From NCBI RefSeq assembly GCF_000313565.1, contig NZ_HE578925.1:225245-280199 (forward strand): a stretch of DNA of 54,955 nucleotides. The letters are read 5' to 3'. The position numbers and the translations under genes were made by a program. The stretch comes from Dielma fastidiosa. GTDB lineage: Bacteria; Bacillota_I; Bacilli_A; Erysipelotrichales; Erysipelotrichaceae. Positions 41,074-54,955 of this stretch are shown piece after piece; the stretch's first letter is position 1, and each line of letters starts with the position of its first letter. The notes under the pieces were generated by a model. It did not search any database, was not told where the DNA came from, and was given only the letters and a program-made list of their open reading frames with translations.

Positions 41074-42393
41074 ATGGTTCAGGAATCATTATTTGATGAT
41101 CGTGAGATGAGTGATCCGCTGGCAAGCCGGCTGCGGCCGAAGACCTTGGATGAATATGTGGGACAAAAGCATCTTTTGGGTGAAGGAAAGGTGCTTGCTC
41201 AGTTAATTAAGAACGATCAAGTATCTTCAATGATTTTCTGGGGTCCGCCGGGTGTCGGCAAGACTACGCTGGCAAGAATTATTGCCGGTAAAACGAAAAG
41301 CCGTTTCATTGATTTCAGTGCTGTTACGAGCGGTATAAAAGAGATTAAGGAAGTAATGAATAAGGCTGAAAGCGCACGATTAATGGGTGAACGGACGATT
41401 TTGTTCATTGATGAGATTCATCGTTTCAATAAGGCTCAGCAGGATGCTTTTCTGCCGTTTGTGGAAAAGGGAAGCATTATATTGATTGGCGCGACAACTG
41501 AAAATCCTTCCTTTGAGATTAATTCCGCGTTATTGTCCCGATGCAAGGTTTTTGTGCTTCAGGCCTTATCAGCAGATGATCTGTCTGAATTAATTCGTCA
41601 TGCTATCAGTTCACCAAAGGGATTTGGTAATTTTAAAATCAATATCAGTGATGAAATGATATATATGATTGCTAATTTTGCTAATGGTGATGCTCGTGTG
41701 GCATTAAATACATTAGAAATGGTTGTGCTGAATGGTGAACGTCAAGGTATTGAGATTACGATTACCAAGGAGACTTTGGAACAATGCATCAGTAAAAAAT
41801 CATTGCTTTATGATAAAAAAGGGGAGGAACATTATAACCTTATCTCAGCGCTTCATAAATCAATGCGTAACAGTGATGTTGATGCGTCCATCTATTGGCT
41901 TGCGAGAATGCTCGAAGCGGGCGAGGACCCGCTTTATGTGGCCCGCAGGGTCGTGCGTTTTGCCAGTGAGGATATCGGCATGGCTGACAGCCGGGCATTG
42001 GAAATTGCGGTTGCTGCTTATCAGGCCTGTCATTTTCTGGGGATGCCGGAATGTAATGTGCATTTGACGCATGCGGTTACGTATATGGCATTGGCTCCAA
42101 AATCAAATGCTTTATATGTTGCCTATGGTAAAGCTGCTGATGATGCTTCAAAGATGCTGGCTGAACCGGTACCGCTGCAGATACGCAATGCACCAACCAA
42201 GCTGATGAAGGATTTAAATTATGGGGCAGGCTATCAGTATGCTCATGATACCGAAGATAAACTTACCAATATGCGCTGTCTGCCTGATTCTTTGCTGAAT
42301 CATTCTTATTATCATCCAACAAATCAAGGATCAGAGGCACGTGTACAGGAACGGATGAAGCAAATTAATGAATGGCGTAAAAAACACCAATAG
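41074..42393 (+). CDS. rarA: Replication-associated recombination protein RarA (MgsA)
   Basis: AAA+ ATPase related to clamp-loader subunits and the Holliday-junction motor RuvB, acting at stalled replication forks. The 439-aa protein has Walker A GPPGVGKT (57-64), Walker B ILFIDEIHRFNKAQQDA and sensor-1 GATTENPSFE. The C-terminal tetramerisation domain contains VARRVVRFASEDIGMAD. Length is usual for bacterial RarA. RBS AGAGGTGAA, 15 bases after the previous gene. Confidence 0.95.
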   Translation: MVQESLFDDREMSDPLASRLRPKTLDEYVGQKHLLGEGKVLAQLIKNDQVSSMIFWGPPGVGKTTLARIIAGKTKSRFIDFSAVTSGIKEIKEVMNKAESARLMGERTILFIDEIHRFNKAQQDAFLPFVEKGSIILIGATTENPSFEINSALLSRCKVFVLQALSADDLSELIRHAISSPKGFGNFKINISDEMIYMIANFANGDARVALNTLEMVVLNGERQGIEITITKETLEQCISKKSLLYDKKGEEHYNLISALHKSMRNSDVDASIYWLARMLEAGEDPLYVARRVVRFASEDIGMADSRALEIAVAAYQACHFLGMPECNVHLTHAVTYMALAPKSNALYVAYGKAADDASKMLAEPVPLQIRNAPTKLMKDLNYGAGYQYAHDTEDKLTNMRCLPDSLLNHSYYHPTNQGSEARVQERMKQINEWRKKHQ

Positions 42394-42401
42394 GAGTTCT
42401 T

Positions 42402-43106
42402 ATGAAAGTAACATATATTGATCACAGTGGTTTTATGATTGAATTAGTGCATACAATTTTGGTTTTTGATTATTATCGCGGTGAGATACCAGCTTTTGAT
42501 CAGTCAAAAAAGGTGTATGTTTTTGCTTCTCACACTCATCAGGATCATTTTAATCGTGAGATTCTTGATTGGCAGGGAGATATTCAATGGATATTATCAA
42601 AAGATATCCGAATTAAACCAACCGATAAAATTCATCAGGTAAAAGCTAATAGCAGTTATATAATTGATGAGCTGAAATGTGAAACGCTGCTTTCTACTGA
42701 TCAGGGCGTTGCATTTATGATTGATGCAGAAGGTGTGTCTATTTACCATGCCGGTGATTTGAATTGGTGGCATTGGGAAGGGGAAAACAGCGATGGTGAA
42801 AATAAAGCTGCGAAGAATGCATTTTTAAAGGAAATGGATAAGCTGAAGGACAGAACCTTTGATTTGGCCTTTGTTCCGCTTGATCCCCGTCAGGAAAAGC
42901 AATTCAGCTGGGGGATGCTTGCCTTTTTAAAGAGTGCGGATGCTAAATTGGTTTTTCCAATGCATATGTGGGAAGACTATGCAGTGATTGAACGGTTTTT
43001 AGCGTTGGATGAGGCTGAGGAATATAAGGATAAAATCGTTAAGATTGAACACATGAATCAATTATTTACAATTAAGGAAGGAGAAAATCATGAATTATAC
43101 ATTTAA
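42402..43106 (+). CDS. UlaG-like metallo-beta-lactamase fold hydrolase
   Basis: The 234-aa cytoplasmic protein has the MBL zinc motif His44-Thr-His46-Gln-Asp48-His49 near the N-terminus, a second-shell YHAGDLNWWHW (about 116-126) and FPMHMWEDY toward the C-terminus. The closest family by eye is the UlaG/ YtkL-like group of broad phosphodiesterase or lactonase-type hydrolases. Substrate unknown. It is placed 8 bases after rarA and overlaps the next gene by 17 bp. Confidence 0.8.
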   Translation: MKVTYIDHSGFMIELVHTILVFDYYRGEIPAFDQSKKVYVFASHTHQDHFNREILDWQGDIQWILSKDIRIKPTDKIHQVKANSSYIIDELKCETLLSTDQGVAFMIDAEGVSIYHAGDLNWWHWEGENSDGENKAAKNAFLKEMDKLKDRTFDLAFVPLDPRQEKQFSWGMLAFLKSADAKLVFPMHMWEDYAVIERFLALDEAEEYKDKIVKIEHMNQLFTIKEGENHELYI

Positions 43107-43461
43107 TCATTTAAACTTTAATGTCTGTGATTTACAGAAAAGCTTGACGTTTTATAAGGAAGCATTAGGCTTAGAGGTTGTGCGCAAGAAAGAAGCGGCT
43201 GACGGCAGCTTTATATTGGCTTATCTGGGTGATGGGAAGAGTGATTTTACTCTTGAATTGACTTGGCTGAAGGATCATCCGCAGAAGTATGATCTTGGTG
43301 AAGAAGAGTTTCACTTGGCTTTGACGGTGAATGATTATGAAGCATCTTTTAAGAAGCATCAGGCGATGGGCTGCGTGTGCTTTAATAATGAAGCGATGGG
43401 AATTTATTTTATAAATGATCCGGATGGCTATTGGATTGAAATCGTTCCATTGAAACGCTGA
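43090..43461 (+). CDS. VOC-family (glyoxalase I-like) protein
   Basis: The 123-aa protein has the paired beta-alpha-beta-beta-beta modules of the vicinal oxygen chelate fold. Four metal ligands typical of glyoxalase I can be placed: His7, Glu56, His75 and Glu117 (in DPDGYWIEIVP). This suggests lactoylglutathione-lyase-like chemistry or a bacillithiol equivalent. It overlaps the preceding MBL gene by 17 bp; an MBL hydrolase next to a glyoxalase I-like protein recalls the glyoxalase I/II pathway, although the MBL is not a classic glyoxalase II. Confidence 0.85.
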   Translation: MNYTFNHLNFNVCDLQKSLTFYKEALGLEVVRKKEAADGSFILAYLGDGKSDFTLELTWLKDHPQKYDLGEEEFHLALTVNDYEASFKKHQAMGCVCFNNEAMGIYFINDPDGYWIEIVPLKR

Positions 43462-43480
43462 TAAGTTGATAGAAAAAATA

Positions 43481-43509
43481 GTGCAAAAGAGTGATAAAAA
43501 TGATATTAT
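43481..43509 (+). promoter_or_regulatory. Probable guaA promoter (extended -10)
   Basis: GTGCAA (43481-43486), 17-bp spacer, TATTAT (43504-43509) preceded by TGA. It has the same layout as the promoters of the helicase gene and the second guaA. Confidence 0.55.
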
Positions 43510-43541
43510 AGTTAGGAAATTGTAAAGAAAAGGAGAAGTTT

Positions 43542-45074
43542 ATGGCAGATAAAATTATCGTTCTTGACTTTGGCAGTCAGTATAACCAGCTGATTGCACG
43601 TCGTGTTCGTGAAATGGGCGTATATAGTGAATTGAAATCACGTCATACAAGTGCTGCGGAAATTGCTGCCGATCCTGAAATAAAAGGTATTATTTTTTCA
43701 GGCGGGCCAAATTCGGTATATGATGAGAATGCTTTTAAGGTAGACCCTGAAATTTTTAAGATTGGGAAGCCAATTTTAGGGATTTGTTATGGGATGCAGC
43801 TGATGGCGCATGATTTGGGCGGCAAGGTTGAGTCTTGTGAGCATGCGGAGTATGGCAAAGCGGATATTGAAATTAAGGCTGGCAATGCGTTGCTGAAGGG
43901 TATGGAAAATACTCAGCAGGTTTGGATGTCACATGGTGATCAGGTTACTGCGGTTCCTGAGTGCTTTGAGGTTAATGCTTCTACACAAACTTGTCCAATT
44001 GTTATGATGAGTAATCCTGAGAAGCGTTTTTATGCGATTCAATTCCATCCGGAAGTGCGTCATACAGTTAACGGCACTGCGATGCTGAAGAATTTTGTAT
44101 TTGGTGTATGTGAGGCTAAGAATAACTGGAGTATGAAGGAATTCGTTGATGTAGAGATTGCGAAGATCAAGGAAACAGTCGGTGATGATGAGGTATTGTG
44201 CGCATTGTCAGGCGGTGTTGACTCTGCGGTTGTGGCGGCTTTGCTGCATAAGGCGATTGGTGATAAGCTGACTTGTATGTTTGTTGATCATGGTTTGCTG
44301 CGCTTGAATGAGGCAGAATCTGTAGTAGATACATTTAAGGGACGTTTTGGCATGAATCTTTATAAGATTGATGCGAGAAATGAGTTCATGAGTTTGCTGA
44401 AGGGTGTGAGTGATCCTGAACAGAAACGTAAGATTATCGGTAATGAATTTATTCGTGTGTTTGAACGCGAGTCTGCAAAGTTTACGCAGATTAAGTGGCT
44501 GGCACAGGGAACATTGTATACAGATGTGATTGAGTCCGGAACGGATACCGCGCAGACGATCAAGAGTCATCATAATGTTGGCGGCCTGCCTGAAAATATG
44601 CAGTTTAAGTTGATTGAACCACTGAATACTTTGTTTAAGGATGAAGTGAGAGAGTTAGGTACGCTGCTGGGGCTGCCTGATGAAATTGTGCACCGTCAGC
44701 CATTCCCAGGGCCGGGTCTTGCGATTCGTGTATTGGGTGAAGTGACTGAAGAGAAGCTGGATCTGGTACGCCGCAGTGATGCGATTTTGCGTGAAGAGAT
44801 TGCGCTGGCTGGCTTGGATAAGGAAATTTGGCAGTATTTTACAGCCTTGCCGGATATGAAGTCAGTAGGTGTTATGGGTGATCAGCGTACATATGAATAT
44901 ACGGTTGGTATTCGTGCGGTTACGTCAATTGATGGTATGACTGCAGATTGGGCGCGGATTCCATATGATGTTCTGGATAAGATTTCAAGACGGATCATCA
45001 ATGAGGTGAAGGGCATTAATCGAGTAGTGCTGGATTGTACGTCGAAACCACCAGCGACGATTGAGTGGGAATAG
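43542..45074 (+). CDS. guaA: GMP synthase (glutamine-hydrolysing), canonical
   Basis: Converts XMP, ATP and glutamine to GMP, the last step of guanine nucleotide synthesis. The 510-aa protein has a class I glutaminase domain with Cys82 in GICYGMQ, His169 and Glu171 in FHPE, the ATP-pyrophosphatase P-loop SGGVDS (223-228), and the C-terminal XMP-binding dimerisation domain ending KPPATIEWE. All catalytic residues are in place. I looked for a guanine or other riboswitch in the 80 bases upstream and saw none. Confidence 0.97.
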
Positions 45075-45179
45075 GGTTGTATTTAGCAATTACTGATCTA
45101 TTTCAAATTGATATTATTTCTTACCATGTTTAATATGAAGTTTATCAGATAAAAATGTTATGCTTATAATTAAATAATA
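45075..45179. other. Non-coding stretch after guaA
   Basis: AT-rich, with no gene recognised. Together with the elements listed separately (guaA terminator and attenuator hairpin) it makes up the 314-base gap between guaA and the GTPase gene. TTGATA at 45254-45259 with TACAGT 18 bp later, or TGTGATAAT at 45309-45317, are candidate promoter elements further down the gap. Confidence 0.5.
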
Positions 45180-45214
45180 AAGCTTTGGCTACAAATTGAA
45201 GCCAGGGCTTTTAT
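45180..45214 (+). terminator. guaA terminator
   Basis: AAGCTTTGGCT / AGCCAGGGCTT stem (two G-T pairs) with a 9-base loop and T-rich tail. Confidence 0.8.
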
Positions 45215-45329
45215 TGTCTTTATAGACTTGTAATTAACTTAGATTATAAATTTTTGATAACGAATTAAGAAATGTTGTACAGTAAATTATTTTAAAAATA
45301 ACGAACAATGTGATAATATTATAAATGCT

Positions 45330-45392
45330 ATGAAAATTAGACAGGCAACTGACCTGTCTTTTTGGATAAGAAATCAGGAGGTAATCAAATGA
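45330..45392 (+). CDS. Possible 20-codon leader peptide upstream of the ribosomal GTPase gene
   Basis: ATG at 45330 opens a 20-codon frame that runs through the attenuator hairpin and stops at TGA 45390-45392, overlapping the ATG of the GTPase gene (ATGA). Resistance genes that act on the ribosome are often controlled by such leader peptides. No ribosome-binding site precedes it and it could be leaderless or chance, so this is tentative. Confidence 0.25.
   Translation: MKIRQATDLSFWIRNQEVIK
45339..45363 (+). terminator. Terminator-like hairpin in the leader of the ribosomal GTPase gene (putative attenuator)
   Basis: Perfect 7-bp stem AGACAGG / CCTGTCT, loop CAACTGA, then five T. It lies 26 bases before the start codon and well after the guaA terminator, so it would stop transcripts of the GTPase gene itself unless antitermination occurs. 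Confidence 0.65.
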
Positions 45393-47980
45393 AGCATGTA
45401 GTAATCGGAACTCTGGCACATGTAGATGCCGGCAAGACAACATTATCAGAAAGTATGCTTTATTTGAGTGGGAGTATCCGAAAATTGGGGCGTGTCGATC
45501 ATGGTGATGCTTTTTTAGACTATGACAAACAAGAGAGAAGTCGCGGAATTACTATATTTTCAAAACAAGCTATTTGCCAATGGAAAGACATCGAATTTAC
45601 CTTGCTTGATACGCCGGGTCATGTCGATTTTTCAAGTGAAATGGAACGCACCCTACAGATTCTGGATTATGCAATTTTGATCATTAATGGTGTTGATGGT
45701 GTGCAGACACATACGGAAACAATTTGGAAATTGCTGGAGCATTATCAAATACCTGTATTTATTTTTATTAATAAGATGGATACGGCATATCTAACGAAAG
45801 AAGTATTGCTGACTGAGTTACGTAAACGGTTAGATGAGAGATGTATTGATTTTACAGCTCCATCTGATGAAATGATGGAACAGGCGGCCATGTGTGATGA
45901 TGAATTGCTGGAAGATTATATGGAACATACGATTATAAACAAATCTTTGTTATTAGCTAAAATACATGAAAGAAAGGTATTTCCATGCTATTTTGGTTCA
46001 GCATTAAAAAGGCAAGGCATAGAGACTTTTCTTGATGGTTTAAGTGAATTTATTGTAATGCATGATTACCCTGAGGAATTTGGTGCGAAGGTATACAAAA
46101 TAACTCGAGATGAGAATGGCAATAAGCTGGCACATATGAAAATCACTGGCGGCAGCTTAAAAGTTAAAGCTAAACTGATTGAAAGTGAGAAGGTTGACCA
46201 GATTCGTAAATATTCAGGCAGTAAATTTACTGTGGTTAATGAAGCTATAGCCGGTGAGGTATGTGCGGTTAAAGGACTGCAGAATGTCTATGCGGGCGAA
46301 GGACTTGGTTTTGAAAAAAAATCTGAAAAGCCTTTGCTTTCTTCCTATATGAACTACCGGATGCAGCTGCCTGAAGGCTGTGATGCATTTACTATGCTTA
46401 GAAATTTAAAACAGCTAGGAGAGGAAGACCCACAGCTTCATATTACATATAATGAACGGTTAAAAGAAATCAGAGTTCAGATGATGGGAGAGATTCAGAC
46501 TGAAATATTAAAAAATATCATCAGCAATCGTTTTAATGTTGATGTGTCTTTTGATCATGGTGCTATCAGCTACCGTGAAACAATATTGGAGCCCGTTGAA
46601 GGCGTAGGGCATTATGAGCCATTAAGGCATTATGCTGAAGTGCATTTGCTGCTTGAACCAGGGGATGAAGGCAGCGGTATCCAAATTGCTAGTGCATGTC
46701 CTGAAGATGAACTGGATCGTCATTGGCAGCGGCTGATATTGAGCCATCTTGAAGAAAAAGAGCATTTAGGAGTGTTAACTGGATCACCTATTACCGATAT
46801 GAAGATAACTTTATTAAGCGGTAGGGCTCATCAAAAGCATACTGAAGGCGGAGATTTTCGTGAAGCAACTTATCGGGCTGTGCGTCAAGGGCTGAAATCT
46901 GCCAAATCAATCGTATTAGAACCTTATTTCAAATTTAAATTAGAAGTACCTACAGAATATTTAAGCCGTGCTGTTTTTGATGTTGAACAGATGAATGGGA
47001 GTTTTGTAATCGATGATACTGTCAATGAAATGACGGTACTGAGCGGCAGCGCGCCAGTAGCAAAAATGCAGAACTATCAAAGCGACTTAGTTGCTTATAC
47101 AAAGGGCAAAGGAAAATTAGCCTGTGTGATGGAAGGCTATAAGCCATGTCAAAATCAAGATGTAATCATTGCTGAAGCAGGCTATGATAGTGAAACCGAT
47201 ATCGATAATCCAACAGGTTCAATTTTTTGTTCACACGGCGCCGGTTATTTTGTACCTTGGCATGAGGTAAAGAAGCAGATGCATGTTACAACCAGTTACA
47301 GCAAGACGGAAAAGAGACAGCAAAGTGCCCCGACCAAGGAAATGAAAAAGTTAAATGATGAAGATTTAGATGCGATATTTATTAAGACATATGGACCAGG
47401 AAAACGGCGCTTGGAAAATAATTCAAAGAAAGCTAAAGAAGAAAGTGTTCAAGGTTTGTTGGCCAGTGTGAAACGTCGGCCTTTATGTTATTTGATTGAT
47501 GGTTATAATATTATTCATTCTTGGCCTGAATTAAAGGAACTGGCTGCCGATAATTTGGATGCTGCTCGTTCGAGACTGATGCAGCTGATGGGAGATTTTC
47601 AAGGCTATAAGCAATGTCTGTTAATTCTTGTATTTGATGCCTATAAGGTATCTGAAGGTGTTGGCCAAATGTTTAAAGATCACAGTATTTTTGTAGTGTA
47701 TACGGATCAGGCGCAGACAGCTGATATGTATATTGAGCGGGCAACGCATAAATTGAGCAGTGATTATCGAGTTGTTGTCGCAACCTCTGATGCAATGGAA
47801 CAATTGATTGTCAGCGGTCAGGGAGCACATAGAATGTCAAGCCGCGAACTGCTGTTAGAGGTAGAAGGACTGCGTAAACGAAGACAGCAGGAGTTTGAAG
47901 AAAGTCAGCGAAAGGGATATAATCAGCCACTTGAAAAAATTCGCGATTTATATAATGATGAGTTAAAAAAATCAGATTGA
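45389..47980 (+). CDS. Tet(M)/EF-G-like ribosomal GTPase fused to a Rae1/YacP-type NYN nuclease domain
   Basis: 863 aa from the ATG at 45389 (AGGAGGT 6 bases upstream). Residues 1-about 640 follow the ribosome-protection protein layout: P-loop GTLAHVDAGKTT (7-18), switch-II DTPGH (74-78), NKMD (128-131), then EF-G-like domains II-V with EVPTEYLSRAVFDVEQM in domain IV. A linker of about 50 residues follows. Residues about 698-863 form a YacP/Rae1-like NYN (PIN-like) domain with acidic residues Asp704 (LIDGYNIIHSWP), Asp750 (LVFDAYK), Asp779/Glu783 (TADMYIERAT) and Asp801 (VATSDAMEQ). Bacillus Rae1 enters the ribosomal A site and cuts mRNA, the same region that Tet(M) visits. Joined, the two parts suggest a GTPase-delivered A-site nuclease; the fused function is inference. 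Tetracycline resistance cannot be assumed. Confidence 0.88.
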   Translation: MKHVVIGTLAHVDAGKTTLSESMLYLSGSIRKLGRVDHGDAFLDYDKQERSRGITIFSKQAICQWKDIEFTLLDTPGHVDFSSEMERTLQILDYAILIINGVDGVQTHTETIWKLLEHYQIPVFIFINKMDTAYLTKEVLLTELRKRLDERCIDFTAPSDEMMEQAAMCDDELLEDYMEHTIINKSLLLAKIHERKVFPCYFGSALKRQGIETFLDGLSEFIVMHDYPEEFGAKVYKITRDENGNKLAHMKITGGSLKVKAKLIESEKVDQIRKYSGSKFTVVNEAIAGEVCAVKGLQNVYAGEGLGFEKKSEKPLLSSYMNYRMQLPEGCDAFTMLRNLKQLGEEDPQLHITYNERLKEIRVQMMGEIQTEILKNIISNRFNVDVSFDHGAISYRETILEPVEGVGHYEPLRHYAEVHLLLEPGDEGSGIQIASACPEDELDRHWQRLILSHLEEKEHLGVLTGSPITDMKITLLSGRAHQKHTEGGDFREATYRAVRQGLKSAKSIVLEPYFKFKLEVPTEYLSRAVFDVEQMNGSFVIDDTVNEMTVLSGSAPVAKMQNYQSDLVAYTKGKGKLACVMEGYKPCQNQDVIIAEAGYDSETDIDNPTGSIFCSHGAGYFVPWHEVKKQMHVTTSYSKTEKRQQSAPTKEMKKLNDEDLDAIFIKTYGPGKRRLENNSKKAKEESVQGLLASVKRRPLCYLIDGYNIIHSWPELKELAADNLDAARSRLMQLMGDFQGYKQCLLILVFDAYKVSEGVGQMFKDHSIFVVYTDQAQTADMYIERATHKLSSDYRVVVATSDAMEQLIVSGQGAHRMSSRELLLEVEGLRKRRQQEFEESQRKGYNQPLEKIRDLYNDELKKSD

Positions 47981-48000
47981 CATATCAATTTGATTTTTTA
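47965..48000 (+). terminator. Terminator of the ribosomal GTPase gene
   Basis: A 15-16-bp A/T-rich stem (47965-47980 with 47985-48000) around a CATA loop, ending in a T run, overlapping the stop codon. Confidence 0.85.
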
Positions 48001-48002
48001 TG

Positions 48003-48031
48003 ATGCAAACGCTTACAAAATATGATACATT
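48003..48031 (+). promoter_or_regulatory. Probable promoter of the helicase gene (extended -10)
   Basis: ATGCAA (48003-48008), 17-bp spacer, TACATT (48026-48031) preceded by TGA. The spacer and -10 closely match those ahead of the second guaA (22 of 29 positions over the whole element). About 145 bases of AT-rich leader without another recognisable element separate it from the gene. Confidence 0.5.
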
Positions 48032-48175
48032 ATTGATGCAGAGGGTTGGTATGGGGATATTAAAAATTTACATATTCATAATTTAATTATCTAACTCATA
48101 TTTGCTGCTGAAGGGGATGGGAATAAAGATTTAGTTTTTAGTATAGTTTTTTCATTTTACACATGGGGAGGAATT

Positions 48176-51100
48176 ATGAATACTATTAATGATGTATTAG
48201 ATTATTATATAAATTTTGAGTTAGAGGAAAGATTATATAAAATTGCGATTAACAAAAATAATTATCTAAATTTAAGTAAAAATAAATTAACTGATTTATC
48301 TAGCATAGAATTTTTACTAACAAGTAAGAAAATAACTTTAATTAAGACGATTATAAATGCGATTAAGTTCAAAAATGAAGATAGGAAAAAAGATTTAATC
48401 AAATTATTAAATACGATTGAAAATGGTAGCCTAACATTAAAGGAAGGATTTGATTTTAATAATTTAGTCAGCAAAAGCGAGTATAAATATGGCGATAATT
48501 ATGCAAAAGATAATCTAGAAATTAATAAGATAATAAATGATAATAAAATTTATATCCTTTATCCTGTTTTTGCGTTTGGAAAACAAAAAATACCACTTAT
48601 TAGTTTCCAGGTCGAAATTAAGGATAATAAAATAATTGTAGAAAATTATCGTGTTCAAATAGAAGCATTGAGAACGATTATATCCCAAATTTTATCATGT
48701 GATAGAGCCGATGTAGAATACGCTATGCCTGATTTTGAAAAATTCTATGAAGCGATATCAGTATATGAAAATACAGATATTTTTGAATTGATTACTATAA
48801 TAGAAAATGAATTAATGGGTAAATTTACGAAAGAGTTATTTACAGGTTTTTGGTCGTATAAAGATTATGGTAACTGGGCTGTTACAGAAGAAATTATTCT
48901 TACAATGGAATCATTTGGTGAAATGATTTTACCTCCATATCAGGAAGAAATTGAGGAAGTTAAATTTCATTTAAAAGATAAAAATTCTAAATTGTTAGAC
49001 CAATATTTATTTGGTTGTGATACATCATTATATTCTGAAAACATAAAAATTAATACTCACTACGGTAGTTACACATCAGCTTATCCAATTAATGAAAAAC
49101 AGGCAAAAGTAATTAATAGTTATAAAATCTCTAATTTGTTAGCAGTCAGTGGCCCACCCGGTACAGGAAAAACAACTGTGATTAAAGAAGTCATAGCGAA
49201 TAATATTGTTGAGAAAGCGATAAAAATACTTGGGATTTGGAATCAAAGTTGGGAAAAAATAGGTTGGGATAATCAAGAGGTTTATCAATCTCCATTAAAA
49301 GGTAAATGTGATTATTCTATGCTGATTGCCAGTGGTAACAATAAAGCAGTAGATAATATCGGGTTAGAATTACTTGAAGAAATTGATTATTTTTCGGAAG
49401 CATTGGACACTAACAAAACTGGATATAAAGGAATACTTTGTGCCAGACTTGGAAATCAAGATAATACTGAGAGCTTTAAAAATGATATCCTTAATCCCTT
49501 GATTAATTACTTAGAAAAAGAAACAATCTACGATGAACAAAAAGCGAATGAAACAATCGTTTCGTTTAAAGCGTCTGTAAATAATTTGTTAAGTTTGAAA
49601 GAGACGATATCTGATTTTAGTAAACATCGAGAAATTCTCTGCAATAAAATGTTAGCTTCAAATGTGTTTGATAGAGAACTAGATGAGCAAATAATTGAGA
49701 AAGCGAGATCTAAGTACAATCATGAAGTCAGCATTCTTATTGAAACTATTAAGCAATTAGAAAACAAATTGTCCGCATTAGAAAAAAGAAAAGTTATTAT
49801 AATTAATGAAATTGCTAAAAAATCTAATAATCTAAAGAAAATCAATGAAGAATTAGACAAAAAACGGCAATATGTACAATTAATTGATAAGAAGGCGAAA
49901 ATTATTCTCATAGGTCATTTTCTAGCACGTTCTTTGGAAAATAAATATGGTAGTAGGTCAAGTATATACGAAAATGTAAACTTATTAGAAAATGATTATA
50001 ATTTAGAAAAAATATTGTATAATCAGCAAGAAGCAGAGTTTAATACTTTGGAAGAGCAATTAACCGATGCTCACAATTTATTAGAAAATAGAAAAAGAGA
50101 AATTGATAAGGTCAAGGAAATCTTATTGTTGATTGATGAATTTGAGAAGTTAAAGGATAAGGCGGATGATTTAATCAAACTTGGTTTAAAAGATGTCAAT
50201 TGGAATAGCTCAGAGTATGATTTATTTAATAATAACTACATAGTTCAATTGAGATATGATTTATTTAAAAAATCACTATTGTTAATAAAGTTATACATAT
50301 GTAAAAATGCACGTTATATTCATTTTAATCTTGAAAAAGTATATCCTGATAAATGGTTTCAAGCATTTTATCGACGTGATTTTCGATACGATATTAAATA
50401 TGAAGGGTATCTAAAGGCCATGTGGGAAACATTGTTTCTTTGCTTTCCAGTTGTGACAACAACACTATTTTCATTAAATAGAATGAAATTTCCTTTAATA
50501 CAAGGATTGTACGATACAATATTAATTGATGAAGCTGGACAGTATTCCATACATACTGTTATAGCGCCAATATACAGATGCCGTAAGGCAATAATAGTTG
50601 GTGATACTAAACAAATTGAGCCAATACGAAATCAGAATAATTATGTTATTGAAAATAGCAAATTAAGTGATCAAATGAAACAACTATTTGATGTAAATTT
50701 GAATAGTATACAAAATGCTGCAGATAGGGCAAGTGATGTTTATGATATTTTGGACGATAAAAAAGTTGGAATAATTCTTAATGAACATCGACGTTGTGAG
50801 AGGTCAATTGTAGAATTCTCTAATCGATATGTATATAAAAATCAATTGAAAATTATAAAAGAGGATACTGTAAAGCCGTTTCTTAAATATAGTTTATGCA
50901 TGATAGATGTTAGAAGTGTTGAAGTAAAACGTCATATTAATAATACAGAAATAGATATGTGTGTTAAAATAATCGACAGACTTTTAGCGATATATGGAAA
51001 TGACTATAAGAAAAATATTGGTATTATAACACCATTTAGAAAACAAGCTGATGCATTAAAAGCGAGGATTCCAGAAATAGAATGTGGTACTGTTCATTTA

Positions 51101-51946
51101 TTTCAAGGTCGTGAAAAAGATATAATTTTATTTAGTATTGTATCTGGCGGTACTGATAGTCGAGGTAGTATGAATTTTATTGGTAAACAAGCAAATAATT
51201 TGAATGTAGCATTTACACGTGCTAAAAAGCAGTTAATTTTGATAGGTAATTATGAAGCTTGTGTTAATGCAAAGAATTATATGAGCTTAGCTATGAATGT
51301 TCTGAAAGAAAGCGGTAAATTATTTTCCATTTACGAAGGTGATATCTTTGAGGAAAATAATCTTGAAGAAGGGTACAAAGAACAATTTTACTCTTTGTTT
51401 ATTGAGTCTAATGTAACGCAAAAACTGGTTGATCTCGAATTAGCGAATTATGTTGAAAATGGTTTGATCGTAACACCTCAAAAACATAACCTTTTATTGT
51501 TAGGTGTTCTAACAAAATTAGAAAATTCACTTCGAATAGTCACGCCTTGGATTCGGTCAAGTGTTGTAAATGCTTCATTTTTAGATTCTTTAAGATTATT
51601 ATTGAATGAGAAAAAGGAAGTGAATATTAGTTTTGGTTATCATAAAACAAATTATGATTTGTCTAATATAGCAGCAATAGTAAAGAGGGATAATTACGGA
51701 AGTGAAGAAAAAGATATCAAGAGTATTCAGGAATTGCATGATTTAATAAAAGATCATCTCGAATATATTCCACCTATTCATTGTAAAATTTTAATCATTG
51801 ATGATAGAATCATGATAATAGGTTCACACAACTGGCTTTCAAATTCAGGAAAAGCAATAAATGCAAAAGACGAGATTAGTTGTATAATTTATGATAAAAA
51901 TATGATTCAATATGTAAAAGAAAGATACTTTAATACATTAAATTAA
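48176..51946 (+). CDS. SF1 helicase (COG1112/DNA2-NAM7 type) with C-terminal phospholipase D nuclease domain; Mokosh type II-like defence protein
   Basis: 1256 aa, starting at 48176 after GGGGAGGA. Residues 1-about 310 are an unrecognised N-terminal region. Walker A GPPGTGKT lies at 326-333, a long coiled coil at about 410-680, and Walker B LIDEAGQ with DEAGQ at 785-789. Then come VGDTKQIEP, LNEHRRCE, IITPFRKQ, VHLFQGREKDI and NVAFTRAKKQL, the SF1B helicase motifs. The last 150 residues hold one PLD motif, His1202-x-Lys1204-x4-Asp1209-x6-Gly-Ser-x-Asn1219. A COG1112-type helicase and a PLD nuclease in one chain is the description of Mokosh type II (MkoC), an anti-phage system. The gene is visibly more AT-rich than its neighbours and uses AT-ending codons, suggesting horizontal gain. 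No integrase, IS or tRNA junction is seen beside it. Confidence 0.8.
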   Translation: MNTINDVLDYYINFELEERLYKIAINKNNYLNLSKNKLTDLSSIEFLLTSKKITLIKTIINAIKFKNEDRKKDLIKLLNTIENGSLTLKEGFDFNNLVSKSEYKYGDNYAKDNLEINKIINDNKIYILYPVFAFGKQKIPLISFQVEIKDNKIIVENYRVQIEALRTIISQILSCDRADVEYAMPDFEKFYEAISVYENTDIFELITIIENELMGKFTKELFTGFWSYKDYGNWAVTEEIILTMESFGEMILPPYQEEIEEVKFHLKDKNSKLLDQYLFGCDTSLYSENIKINTHYGSYTSAYPINEKQAKVINSYKISNLLAVSGPPGTGKTTVIKEVIANNIVEKAIKILGIWNQSWEKIGWDNQEVYQSPLKGKCDYSMLIASGNNKAVDNIGLELLEEIDYFSEALDTNKTGYKGILCARLGNQDNTESFKNDILNPLINYLEKETIYDEQKANETIVSFKASVNNLLSLKETISDFSKHREILCNKMLASNVFDRELDEQIIEKARSKYNHEVSILIETIKQLENKLSALEKRKVIIINEIAKKSNNLKKINEELDKKRQYVQLIDKKAKIILIGHFLARSLENKYGSRSSIYENVNLLENDYNLEKILYNQQEAEFNTLEEQLTDAHNLLENRKREIDKVKEILLLIDEFEKLKDKADDLIKLGLKDVNWNSSEYDLFNNNYIVQLRYDLFKKSLLLIKLYICKNARYIHFNLEKVYPDKWFQAFYRRDFRYDIKYEGYLKAMWETLFLCFPVVTTTLFSLNRMKFPLIQGLYDTILIDEAGQYSIHTVIAPIYRCRKAIIVGDTKQIEPIRNQNNYVIENSKLSDQMKQLFDVNLNSIQNAADRASDVYDILDDKKVGIILNEHRRCERSIVEFSNRYVYKNQLKIIKEDTVKPFLKYSLCMIDVRSVEVKRHINNTEIDMCVKIIDRLLAIYGNDYKKNIGIITPFRKQADALKARIPEIECGTVHLFQGREKDIILFSIVSGGTDSRGSMNFIGKQANNLNVAFTRAKKQLILIGNYEACVNAKNYMSLAMNVLKESGKLFSIYEGDIFEENNLEEGYKEQFYSLFIESNVTQKLVDLELANYVENGLIVTPQKHNLLLLGVLTKLENSLRIVTPWIRSSVVNASFLDSLRLLLNEKKEVNISFGYHKTNYDLSNIAAIVKRDNYGSEEKDIKSIQELHDLIKDHLEYIPPIHCKILIIDDRIMIIGSHNWLSNSGKAINAKDEISCIIYDKNMIQYVKERYFNTLN

Positions 51947-51999
51947 TATTTAGGTTCTGTTAATTATTAACCAAGATGCTATGTTTCTATTTTATTAGA

Positions 52000-52028
52000 T
52001 GCAGCGATTGTCAAAATATGGTACATTA
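52000..52028 (+). promoter_or_regulatory. Probable promoter of the second guaA (extended -10)
   Basis: ATGCAG (52000-52005), 17-bp spacer, TACATT (52023-52028) preceded by TGG, 31 bases before the start codon. Confidence 0.55.
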
Positions 52029-52059
52029 ATAGTAGTTTAAAAGGTAAAGGAGAGACGGA

Positions 52060-53367
52060 ATGAAACAAGATATGATTGTAATATTGGATTTAGGCAGCAG
52101 CGATAACACGCGTTTAGCCAGAGAAATTCGTGAATTAGGTGTATACAGCGAGATTTATCCGCATGATATTACTAAGGAGGAATTGGCAAAACTGCCAAAT
52201 GTTAAGGGAATTATTATTAACGGCGGTCCAAATCATATGATTGATGGAGAACGGATTGATGTATGCCATTGTGTATATGAAGCTGGTTATCCGGTAATGG
52301 CAGTTGAACATGAACCAGCAATTTGTGAAGAAAAATTAGCTTGCTGGCCTGAGGATAAGGATGCTCGCACTGACTTGCTTAAAAAATTTGTTTTTGACAC
52401 ATGTCACGCCGAAGCTAATTGGAACATGAAAAACTTTGTTGCTGATCAAGTGGAATTAATTCGTCAGCAGGTGGGTGATCGTAAGGTTTTACTTGCATTG
52501 TCTGGCGGTGTTGACAGTTCAGTTGTTGCGGCATTATTGGTTAAGGCTATCGGCAAACAATTGGTTTGTGTACACGTGAACCATGGGCTCATGCGCAAGG
52601 GTGAGTCAGAAAGCGTTGTTGAAGTATTTAAGAATCAGCTTGATGCCAATTTAGTTTATGTTGATGCGAGTGAAAGATTTTTAGGCAAGCTGGCGGGTGT
52701 CGCTGACCCTGAAGAAAAACGTAAAATTATCGGTGCGGAATTTATCCGTGTTTTTGAAGAAGAAGCGAGAAAACTTGAGGGCATTGACTTTTTAGCACAG
52801 GGAACTATTTATCCAGATATCGTGGAAAGCGGTACAAAGACAGCGAAGGTTGTTAAATCACATCATAACGTAGGAGGACTGCCTGAAGATTTAAATTTTG
52901 AATTAGTAGAACCATTACGTCAATTATTTAAAGATGAGGTACGTGCCTGCGGTTTAGAGTTAGGATTACCTGATGAAATGGTTTTCCGTCAGCCATTCCC
53001 TGGACCTGGACTTGGTGTTCGCTGCTTAGGAGCAATTACTAAAGAACGTCTTGAGGCGGTAAGAGAAGCAGATGCAATTTTACGTGAAGAGTTCCACAAT
53101 GCTGGCTTGGATAAAAAGGTATGGCAGTATTTTACTGTTGTTCCTGATTTTAAATCGGTGGGTGTTAGAGATAACGCAAGATCATTTGAATATCCAGTGA
53201 TTTTAAGAGCAGTAAATACGGTGGATGCAATGACAGCCTCTATCGAACAAATTGATTGGCCGGTATTGCTGAAAATCACAGATCGTATCTTAAAGGAAGT
53301 TGCCAATGTAAATCGTGTTTGCTATGATTTATCACCAAAACCGACGGCAACAATTGAATGGGAATAG
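52060..53367 (+). CDS. GMP synthase paralogue with degenerate glutaminase domain
   Basis: The 435-aa protein is 75 residues shorter than the upstream GuaA, all lost from the N-terminal glutaminase half. The remaining approximately 110-residue N-terminal region still starts like GuaA (VILDLGSSDNTRLARE, INGGPN), but the nucleophile site GICYGMQ is AVEHEPA and the FHPE segment is missing. The ATP-pyrophosphatase P-loop SGGVDS (148-153), [11 protein letters not shown] and the C-terminal KPTATIEWE domain are intact. It should still aminate XMP using free ammonia, or an unlinked glutaminase subunit, or have taken another role. RBS GGAGAG. It has its own promoter and terminator. Confidence 0.9.
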   Translation: MKQDMIVILDLGSSDNTRLAREIRELGVYSEIYPHDITKEELAKLPNVKGIIINGGPNHMIDGERIDVCHCVYEAGYPVMAVEHEPAICEEKLACWPEDKDARTDLLKKFVFDTCHAEANWNMKNFVADQVELIRQQVGDRKVLLALSGGVDSSVVAALLVKAIGKQLVCVHVNHGLMRKGESESVVEVFKNQLDANLVYVDASERFLGKLAGVADPEEKRKIIGAEFIRVFEEEARKLEGIDFLAQGTIYPDIVESGTKTAKVVKSHHNVGGLPEDLNFELVEPLRQLFKDEVRACGLELGLPDEMVFRQPFPGPGLGVRCLGAITKERLEAVREADAILREEFHNAGLDKKVWQYFTVVPDFKSVGVRDNARSFEYPVILRAVNTVDAMTASIEQIDWPVLLKITDRILKEVANVNRVCYDLSPKPTATIEWE

Positions 53368-53378
53368 AAAATGATATC

Positions 53379-53407
53379 AAAAAGTGCTGATTAATGGCAC
53401 TTTTTTT
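53379..53407 (+). terminator. Terminator of the second guaA
   Basis: AAAAAGTGC / GCACTTTTT stem with a 9-base loop and T tail. Confidence 0.88.
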
Positions 53408-53553
53408 CATGATTTAAAAATTTATTTAATTGAGATAAATACCGAAAGCTTTTTATTTGCTTCAACATTGAGTATAATAATACAATACAGACTGTTGAGT
53501 AGGCAGGCTTTAAAAGAATGCCTACTAAATTTTTTGAAAGTGAGGAAAATAAA

Positions 53554-53907
53554 ATGGAAAAGCCTAAGGCATACACAATGTTATTTAGCAAAATATATCC
53601 GTTGTACGTCAATAAAGCGGTAAAGAAAGGACGCACACAAGATGAAGTAAATGAAATCCTCTTTTGGCTGACGGGTTATAATGAAGACACGCTTCAGCAG
53701 CAAATCAATTCTGAAGTTGATTTAGAAACCTTCTTTAATCAAGCTCCGCACTTTAATCCAAATGCGGTTTTGATCAAGGGGAGTATATGCGGTTGCCGTG
53801 TTGAGGAGATTGAAGATGATGTTCTGCGTAAAATACGCTATTTAGATAAATTGGTTGATGAACTGGCAAAAGGTAAATCAATGACAACGATTCTAAGAAA
53901 AGAATAG
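53554..53907 (+). CDS. DUF2200 family protein
   Basis: The 117-aa protein is of a widespread family without known function. Conserved stretches include FSKIYPLYVNKAVKKGRT, EILFWLTGY, DLETFFNQAPHFNPN, GSICGCRVEEIED and IRYLDKLVDELAKGKSM. There is no signal or membrane segment. The start at 53554 is preferred because GTGAGG lies upstream and the family begins with this short leader; an ATG at 53518 adds 12 unconserved residues. TATAAT at 53473-53478 probably marks its promoter. The GNAT gene follows after 31 bases. Confidence 0.85.
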   Translation: MEKPKAYTMLFSKIYPLYVNKAVKKGRTQDEVNEILFWLTGYNEDTLQQQINSEVDLETFFNQAPHFNPNAVLIKGSICGCRVEEIEDDVLRKIRYLDKLVDELAKGKSMTTILRKE

Positions 53908-53938
53908 TTTATTATGGTTAAAGAAATGGAGCGATTCG

Positions 53939-54397
53939 ATGAATATAAAATTTATTCCGATTACATCTCATAATTATGATGAGGTCAAAAATTTACATAT
54001 TAGCGCATCACAGAAGGGAAATGTAGAAACGGTGGAAGAATGCTGCCGGGAAGCAGAGGAGTTTTCTTTATGGCATCCTATCGCTATTGCCGATGGTGAA
54101 CAGTTGATTGGTTTTGCTATGTATGGTCTTTGGATCAATGAAGGTGAACGCGGAAGAGTGTGGCTGGATAGATTCTTTATTGATGAACGTTTTCAGGGCC
54201 GAGGATATGCAAAGCCTGTTTTAATTCAGCTAATAAGAAAAATCCATGAAGAGTATGGATACGATGAGGTTTATTTAAGCGTTTATGAGTCAAATCAGCT
54301 GGCGATAAAAGTCTATCAATCCCTTGGCTTTGCATTTAACGGTGAACGCGATATTAATAATGAACTTGTAATGGTGTTGGATATCAAAAATCACTAA
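53939..54397 (+). CDS. GNAT-family N-acetyltransferase (spermidine/diamine acetyltransferase-like)
   Basis: The 152-aa acetyl-CoA-dependent transferase has motif A DRFFIDERFQGRGYAKPVL (the QGRGYA pyrophosphate loop) and a C-terminal YQSLGF-like segment with Asn/Tyr in VYESNQLAIKVYQSLGFAF. The early HISASQKGNVETVEEC segment resembles polyamine acetyltransferases of the BltD/PaiA type. The substrate is therefore a guess at polyamines. It is probably co-transcribed with the DUF2200 gene. Confidence 0.82.
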   Translation: MNIKFIPITSHNYDEVKNLHISASQKGNVETVEECCREAEEFSLWHPIAIADGEQLIGFAMYGLWINEGERGRVWLDRFFIDERFQGRGYAKPVLIQLIRKIHEEYGYDEVYLSVYESNQLAIKVYQSLGFAFNGERDINNELVMVLDIKNH

Positions 54398-54439
54398 TAT
54401 CTGAATGCGAAATTAAGACAGATTGAGATTTATTATGAG

Positions 54440-54468
54440 TTGATTAAGCGGACATCTTATTATATACT
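54440..54468 (+). promoter_or_regulatory. Promoter of the c-di-AMP receptor-like gene
   Basis: TTGATT (54440-54445), 17-bp spacer, TATACT (54463-54468). It rules out translation starts before about 54475. Confidence 0.72.
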
Positions 54469-54505
54469 TAATAGGGTAAAGCATGAAAGAATGGATGTGG
54501 TAAAA

Positions 54506-54808
54506 GTGAATTTACTGATGATAATTGTAAATGATGAATTTCAGGAGGAAATGCTTGAACTGCTGGGTGAAAATGATTATATGGCAACAATGGTAGCTTC
54601 TACTGGTGAGTTCCTTCAATATGGCAATACTACGTTTATTCTTGGTGTTGATGATGAAGAAACTGATAAATTGGTACAGCTCATTGATAAAAAAACAAGT
54701 AAAAATCGAAATCAATATGAAGATTCAATAGGAGTTAAGGATATTCATAACAGAAAAAATATTGCGACGATTTTTATCATGAAATCAGAACAATTCATTA
54801 AGACTTAG
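54506..54808 (+). CDS. Cyclic-di-AMP receptor-like PII family protein (DarA/PstA, DUF970)
   Basis: The 100-aa PII-like signalling protein belongs to the family that binds cyclic di-AMP in Firmicutes. NDYMATMVASTGEFLQYGNTTFILGVDD matches the DarA signature TKLATTGGFLKxGNTTFMIGVED almost throughout. The start is chosen at the GTG at 54506, since MNLLMIIVND aligns with the family N-terminus; an ATG at 54491 is the alternative (105 aa). The region between the beta strands is shorter on the C-terminal side than usual, but the family core is complete. Its target is unknown, as in Bacillus. Confidence 0.85.
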   Translation: MNLLMIIVNDEFQEEMLELLGENDYMATMVASTGEFLQYGNTTFILGVDDEETDKLVQLIDKKTSKNRNQYEDSIGVKDIHNRKNIATIFIMKSEQFIKT

Positions 54809-54836
54809 ACGAAGTGGAACCTTCGTTTTCTTTTTG
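54809..54836 (+). terminator. Terminator of the c-di-AMP receptor-like gene
   Basis: ACGAAG / CTTCGT stem with TGGAAC loop followed by TTTTCTTTTT. Confidence 0.78.
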
Positions 54837-54907
54837 CATCAGATTTATACAATGATAATCAGTTTTAAAAATCTGAGCTTTTTTAATCAAAAAAATTTAA
54901 AAAGCTG

Positions 54908-54936
54908 TTGACATTTTTGCCTAATTCCTGTAAGAT
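54908..54936 (+). promoter_or_regulatory. Strong promoter at the window end
   Basis: Consensus TTGACA (54908-54913), 17-bp spacer, TAAGAT (54931-54936), with an upstream A/T tract. The transcript it drives lies outside the window. Confidence 0.8.
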
Positions 54937-54955
54937 AAATGAGCAATCGAAAGAT

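Follow-up and report, generated by a model that had tools for sequence, protein, structure and literature searches.

The fusion gene and its surroundings

The window (the whole 54,955-nucleotide stretch of Dielma fastidiosa DNA that was analysed) carries one open frame of 863 amino acids, starting at ATG, in which an EF-G/Tet-like translational GTPase is followed by a tail, a linker and a nuclease domain of the NYN_YacP, or Rae1, type (Table 1). That the GTPase and the NYN domain lie in frame in one protein, as the sequence-only reading had it, is borne out, since Pfam recovers all the domains in this single frame. That reading had also given the GTPase about 640 residues; it is a GTPase by its Pfam domains, but the GTPase proper ends near residue 590, after which come the tail and the linker. 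A frame error or a chimera joining two genes is ruled out because dozens of independent genomes share the same in-frame fusion.

Table 1. Features of the fusion gene and its neighbourhood, in window coordinates.
Feature	Position	Strand	Evidence
guaA (GMP synthase)	43542..45074	+	
Region upstream of fusion, extended -10-like TGTGATAAT	45309..45392	+	
Terminator-like hairpin with T run, 29-50 bases 5′ of the fusion start codon	45339..45359		
Shine-Dalgarno AGGAGG, seven bases 5′ of ATG	45376..45381	+	sequence
Fusion gene: EF-G/Tet-like translational GTPase, tail, linker, NYN_YacP (Rae1-type) nuclease	45389..47980	+	
G domain, residues 1-221	45389..46051	+	Pfam GTP_EFTU 2-221, 9e-51
Domain II, residues 232-304	46082..46300	+	Pfam EF-G_D2
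Domain III, residues 335-388	46391..46552	+	Pfam EFG_III
Domain IV, residues 392-506	46562..46906	+	Pfam EFG_IV
Domain V, residues 509-590	46913..47158	+	Pfam EFG_C
Subfamily-specific tail, residues 586-634, NPTGSxFCSHGAG motif	47144..47290	+	
Linker, residues 635-699	47291..47485	+	modelled with low confidence; mean pairwise identity 23%
NYN_YacP nuclease domain, residues 702-860	47492..47968	+	Pfam, YacP structure match
Asp704 codon (DGYN)	47498..47500	+	aligns with Asp7 of YacP chain
Asp750 codon (VFDA)	47636..47638	+	aligns to YacP
Asp779 codon (QTAD)	47723..47725	+	aligns to YacP
Asp801 codon (TSD)	47789..47791	+	aligns to YacP
Downstream gene, 1256 aa, AAA_11/AAA_12 helicase and PLD nuclease domains	48176..51946	+	PADLOC MkoC, 458 bits
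Second guaA, apparently without part of the glutaminase domain	52060..53367	+	

Between the first guaA gene and the fusion there is, besides the hairpin, a short frame of 20 codons whose stop overlaps the fusion start codon. Hairpin and short frame together form a possible attenuator. A hairpin within 70 bases precedes 12 of 98 fusion genes and 31 of 635 control genes, a weak enrichment with controls that are unmatched for operon position. Rfam gave no match in the window from 42000 to 54955.

The gene that follows the fusion is, to judge from its profile match, probably a Mokosh type II anti-phage gene. The two guaA genes bracket the fusion and this gene. The guaA gene is an integration site of mobile elements, and the pair could mark the boundary of an island.

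The two halves of the protein

The fusion protein is a member of the EF-G family, with domains G, II, III, IV and V and the GTPase motifs all present; the G motifs AHVDAGKT (P-loop), DTPGH and NKxD are kept in homologues. The PDB relatives of residues 1-588 are EF-G and TetO/TetM. The GTPase part is 29% identical to TetM and 27% identical to the EF-G encoded in the same genome, which also carries an EF-G paralogue. The order of the domains is the same as in EF-G and in the Tet(M)/Tet(O) ribosomal protection proteins, but loops I-III of domain IV and the region at the C-terminus are unlike those of the Tet proteins, which carry no nuclease, and the domain IV tip and the tail differ from those of EF-G. 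Judged by sequence, the GTPase half does not belong to the Tet proteins: NCBIfam tet_protect scores 394.8 bits, below its 775-bit cut-off.

Of the domains of the fusion family, domain IV, which in EF-G and Tet proteins is the one that reaches into the A site, is conserved best, with a mean pairwise identity of 74%, against 60% for G, 58% for II, 52% for III, 52% for V, 58% for the tail, 23% for the linker and 62% for NYN. Where the Tet loops would stand, its tip has the motifs GVGH(F/Y)EPLRHYAEV and AHxKHTEGGDFR, so that EPLRHYAEV takes the place of the Tet loop EVPPNPFWAS, and AHxKHTEGGDFR that of the Tet loop YYSPVSTPADFR; loop I differs too. Domain IV is under strong constraint, and it is unlike that of Tet proteins or EF-G. 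P509 and Y506 of Tet(M) align to Lys483 and Ala480 of the fusion. Pro509 of Tet(M) is located in the tetracycline site (PMC8161019). Since, however, a Tet(M) S508A/P509A/V510A triple mutant remains active (PMC4750697), the letters of the loops cannot by themselves exclude drug release. The non-Tet domain IV argues against plain tetracycline protection. Judged by profile scores and alignments, the GTPase half is a distinct branch of the EF-G family, separate from the Tet proteins. A separate tet(M)-type gene is present elsewhere in the genome (G000:C6:86951-88770) in two overlapping frames, which reflect either a real break or a sequencing error.

The tail is missing from TetM, TetO and EF-G and is found in unfused relatives as well. 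One of these, from Ligilactobacillus salivarius (pMP118), has 48% identity over residues 1-632 and shares the domain IV motifs and the tail; unlike the fusion, it stops after the tail, without NYN. A putative zinc site (Cys587/Cys614/His616/His632) was rejected, as its residues are nearly invariant in 48 sequences but lost in divergent members from the phylum of D. fastidiosa. The linker is poorly conserved, with a median of 73 residues across aligned homologues and a short conserved helix near residues 657-669. An AlphaFold2 model built from 48 sequences (mean pLDDT 82, pTM 0.60), whose best Foldseek matches are EF-G structures, has both halves well modelled; segments 640-661 and 666-694 fall below a pLDDT of 50, and the position of NYN relative to the GTPase is not fixed. 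Docking on the 70S ribosome would decide little, because the linker lets NYN range far over the ribosome surface and because domain IV and NYN could hardly occupy the A site together.

The NYN domain, said to be complete when only the letters had been read, proves to be so: NYN_YacP (PF05991) matches at 155 bits against a cut-off of 24.6 (E 2.3e-45) over nearly the whole model, and in the PDB residues 701-836 match Bacillus subtilis YacP (5mq9, E 8.8e-27). The four acidic positions had also been picked correctly. All four are Asp in 34 of 34 aligned homologues from the same phylum and in 48 of 48 of a second set (82/82), with no loss. By these matches the NYN domain is a Rae1-type nuclease with intact acidic residues, and both halves of the fusion look active. 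Rae1 is a ribosomal A-site endoribonuclease that cuts mRNA (PMC6613710). The Rae1/YacP of B. subtilis (PDB 5mq8/5mq9) resembles the fusion in its NYN sequence, in the same four acidic positions and in its number of about one copy per genome. It is, unlike the fusion, a free protein without a GTPase, encoded beside rlmB (yacO).

Fused and free Rae1-type nucleases

In the D. fastidiosa genome, a whole-genome search found a single NYN_YacP, the fusion itself. To compare fused and free forms elsewhere, each NYN was classed according to how long its surrounding open frame is. Among 245 genomes of Clostridia, 161 are NYN_YacP-positive (85 fused, 71 free, 5 in truncated frames), and none of the 161 has both a fused and a free NYN_YacP above the cut-off. 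The class of Desulfosporosinus gives the same picture, with 30 fused, 9 free, 2 truncated and none with both. In the phylum of D. fastidiosa, 38 genomes score over the cut-off, and every one of them carries either the fused form or an obvious derivative of it (36 with one long frame, one with two overlapping frames, G250, and one without domains IV-V, G058); no clear free copy was found in this phylum. A further 18 genomes, reached via named loci, have exactly one NYN apiece, and 71 of the 80 best named loci in GTDB are fused in frame. Weak second NYN matches were rejected: two inspected by sequence resemble DNA polymerase I, and those in G679, G744 and G785 score under the cut-off.

The chance of no overlap is 6e-14 for 80 fused and 64 free among the 245 Clostridia genomes, a plain figure that ignores kinship. 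Because lineages with the one or the other form cluster in the phylogeny, the number of independent events behind the exclusion is smaller than the number of genomes. The fusion is common not only in its own phylum but also in Clostridia and in relatives of Desulfosporosinus. In the survey of fused against separate rae1, taken across hundreds of relatives, the fused form stands in for a separate Rae1.

Gene neighbourhoods differ between the two forms. In B. subtilis, yacO (rlmB) and rae1 are neighbouring and co-transcribed (PMC6613710). Free rae1 directly adjoins rlmB in 8 of 11 loci examined, and in a further locus the two are about 3 kb apart; at most one of the fused loci lies beside rlmB, and there the neighbour is a weak rlmB-like one. 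The fusion studied here does not have the rlmB-operon placement either, its upstream gene being guaA. A conserved operon partner of the fusion was sought and rejected, as the commonest family of neighbours recurs at 13 of 113 loci, in mixed positions.

A profile built from domains IV-V and the tail and run over 60 genomes gives three levels: fused proteins score 446-461 bits, unfused members of the subfamily (in eight of the 60) 312-352 bits and other EF-G-type proteins at most 120 bits. Seven of the eight genomes with an unfused subfamily GTPase also carry a free Rae1; in the genomes searched, the unfused GTPase is present in 7 of 41 with free Rae1 and 1 of 12 without NYN, which are small numbers. 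In the GTPase tree, eight unfused clostridial proteins and the Tet/EF-G rows fall on one side of a supported branch; the L. salivarius protein falls among the fused ones, and one unfused row (L199) is a misplaced long branch. Nine free copies are separate in the NYN tree, where L206 stays with the fused ones. From these trees, a single fusion in one branch of the GTPase subfamily, followed by a few losses, is likely.

Two records deserve mention. The relative in G058 that lacks domains IV and V (L054, 4846-6690, minus strand) has G-II-III joined straight to NYN in a 615-aa frame, without IV, V and tail; this single-genome case may be real or an assembly fault. Another fusion gene (L176, 5421-7958) is found in an unverified faecal ‘bacteriophage’ scaffold, MT835563.1, which is probably host DNA.

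The architecture itself has already been published. Atkinson 2015 (PMC4342817) described NYN-carrying “Tet” proteins in ten clostridial species, with a Tet/EF-G-like GTPase and a YacP-like NYN in one chain as here, and suggested an RNase-based resistance mechanism. These proteins and the fusion very probably belong to the same family, matched by the published description. They were called Tet proteins; here the GTPase proves to form a separate branch that lacks the Tet loops, is widespread and does not occur together with free Rae1. New here are this exclusion, a domain IV unlike that of Tet proteins, and how widely the family is spread. In the literature searched, which mostly left subscription papers outside its reach, no later work on the GTPase-NYN fusion and no experimental test of any such fusion was found.

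A proposed role on the ribosome

What would such a protein do? The simplest reading is that it would do the same job as Rae1 with a built-in ribosome-binding motor. The likeliest account, to which we give even odds, is that the fusion serves these bacteria as their Rae1, and that its own GTPase takes it to ribosomes to cut mRNA at or near the A site. On a 70S ribosome with a free or blocked A site, the EF-G-like half in its GTP form would dock at the factor site, and its specialised domain IV would enter the decoding centre. On GTP hydrolysis domain IV would withdraw, and the NYN domain, tethered nearby by the flexible linker, would then cut the mRNA in or beside the A site; alternatively, it might act on a neighbouring ribosome, the linker being long enough for either. 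The message would thereby be destroyed and the ribosome handed over to the usual rescue route. Since domain IV and NYN would compete for the A site, this account needs an ordered mechanism. We infer ribosome binding from the EF-G family and mRNA as the substrate from Rae1; the sequence of events and a preference for slow or stalled ribosomes are likewise part of the proposal. The first interpretation of this locus, a nuclease delivered to paused or drug-blocked ribosomes, is upheld in part, by the Rae1-type NYN, the lack of any sampled genome with both forms and the distinct GTPase branch.

The GTPase is not obviously needed for entry into the A site, since free Rae1 works in B. subtilis without a fused GTPase, and it has a use of its own, since unfused GTPase relatives exist in some genomes. 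A bolder proposal, possible but on the doubtful side, is that these proteins form a separate class of bacterial ribosome-rescue factor, in which domain IV would sense and clear a blocked A site and the tethered nuclease would cut the mRNA, all in one chain. It is also conceivable, though we think it improbable, that the halves are independent and that fusion merely sets their ratio or puts the nuclease on ribosomes generally. The long, weakly conserved linker would fit this, as would the unfused GTPases of L. salivarius and of the eight sampled genomes, seven with free Rae1, and the one relative that retains the nuclease without domains IV-V; very divergent lineages have, however, held on to the fusion with its two active sites intact, and the short linker helix is conserved.

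The 2015 suggestion would make the protein an antibiotic-resistance or drug-stress factor, with the GTPase displacing an A-site drug and the RNase helping. Its closest characterised GTPases are indeed EF-G and TetM/TetO, NCBI labels some members as TetM/W/O/S family, and the terminator-like hairpin before the start recalls drug-inducible attenuators. The low Tet model score and identity, the three altered domain IV loops (with Lys for Pro509 and Ala for Tyr506), the presence in the genome of a distinct tet(M)-type gene, albeit split over two frames, the lineage-wide spread of the fusion and the weak enrichment of the hairpin speak against it, and we hold it unlikely. A substrate other than mRNA has a similarly low probability: NYN would cut rRNA or tRNA, in maturation, ribosome inactivation or a stress response. 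YacP was first predicted to be an rRNA/tRNA maturation enzyme, as cited in PMC4342817, and the A-site tRNA and the 16S decoding bases would be within reach of the linker. Against this, the characterised relative Rae1 cuts mRNA (PMC6613710), and the fusion is not an essential maturation enzyme, because many genomes of the same family are without the gene.

If the preferred reading of a GTPase-borne Rae1 is true, common gut Clostridia and relatives of the D. fastidiosa family bring an mRNA nuclease to ribosomes by a GTP-driven factor, and the natural fused and free forms permit a direct test of how Rae1 picks ribosomes. Some genes of commensals that are annotated as tetracycline resistance (TetM/W/O/S family) would then probably be misnamed, which bears on resistome counts.
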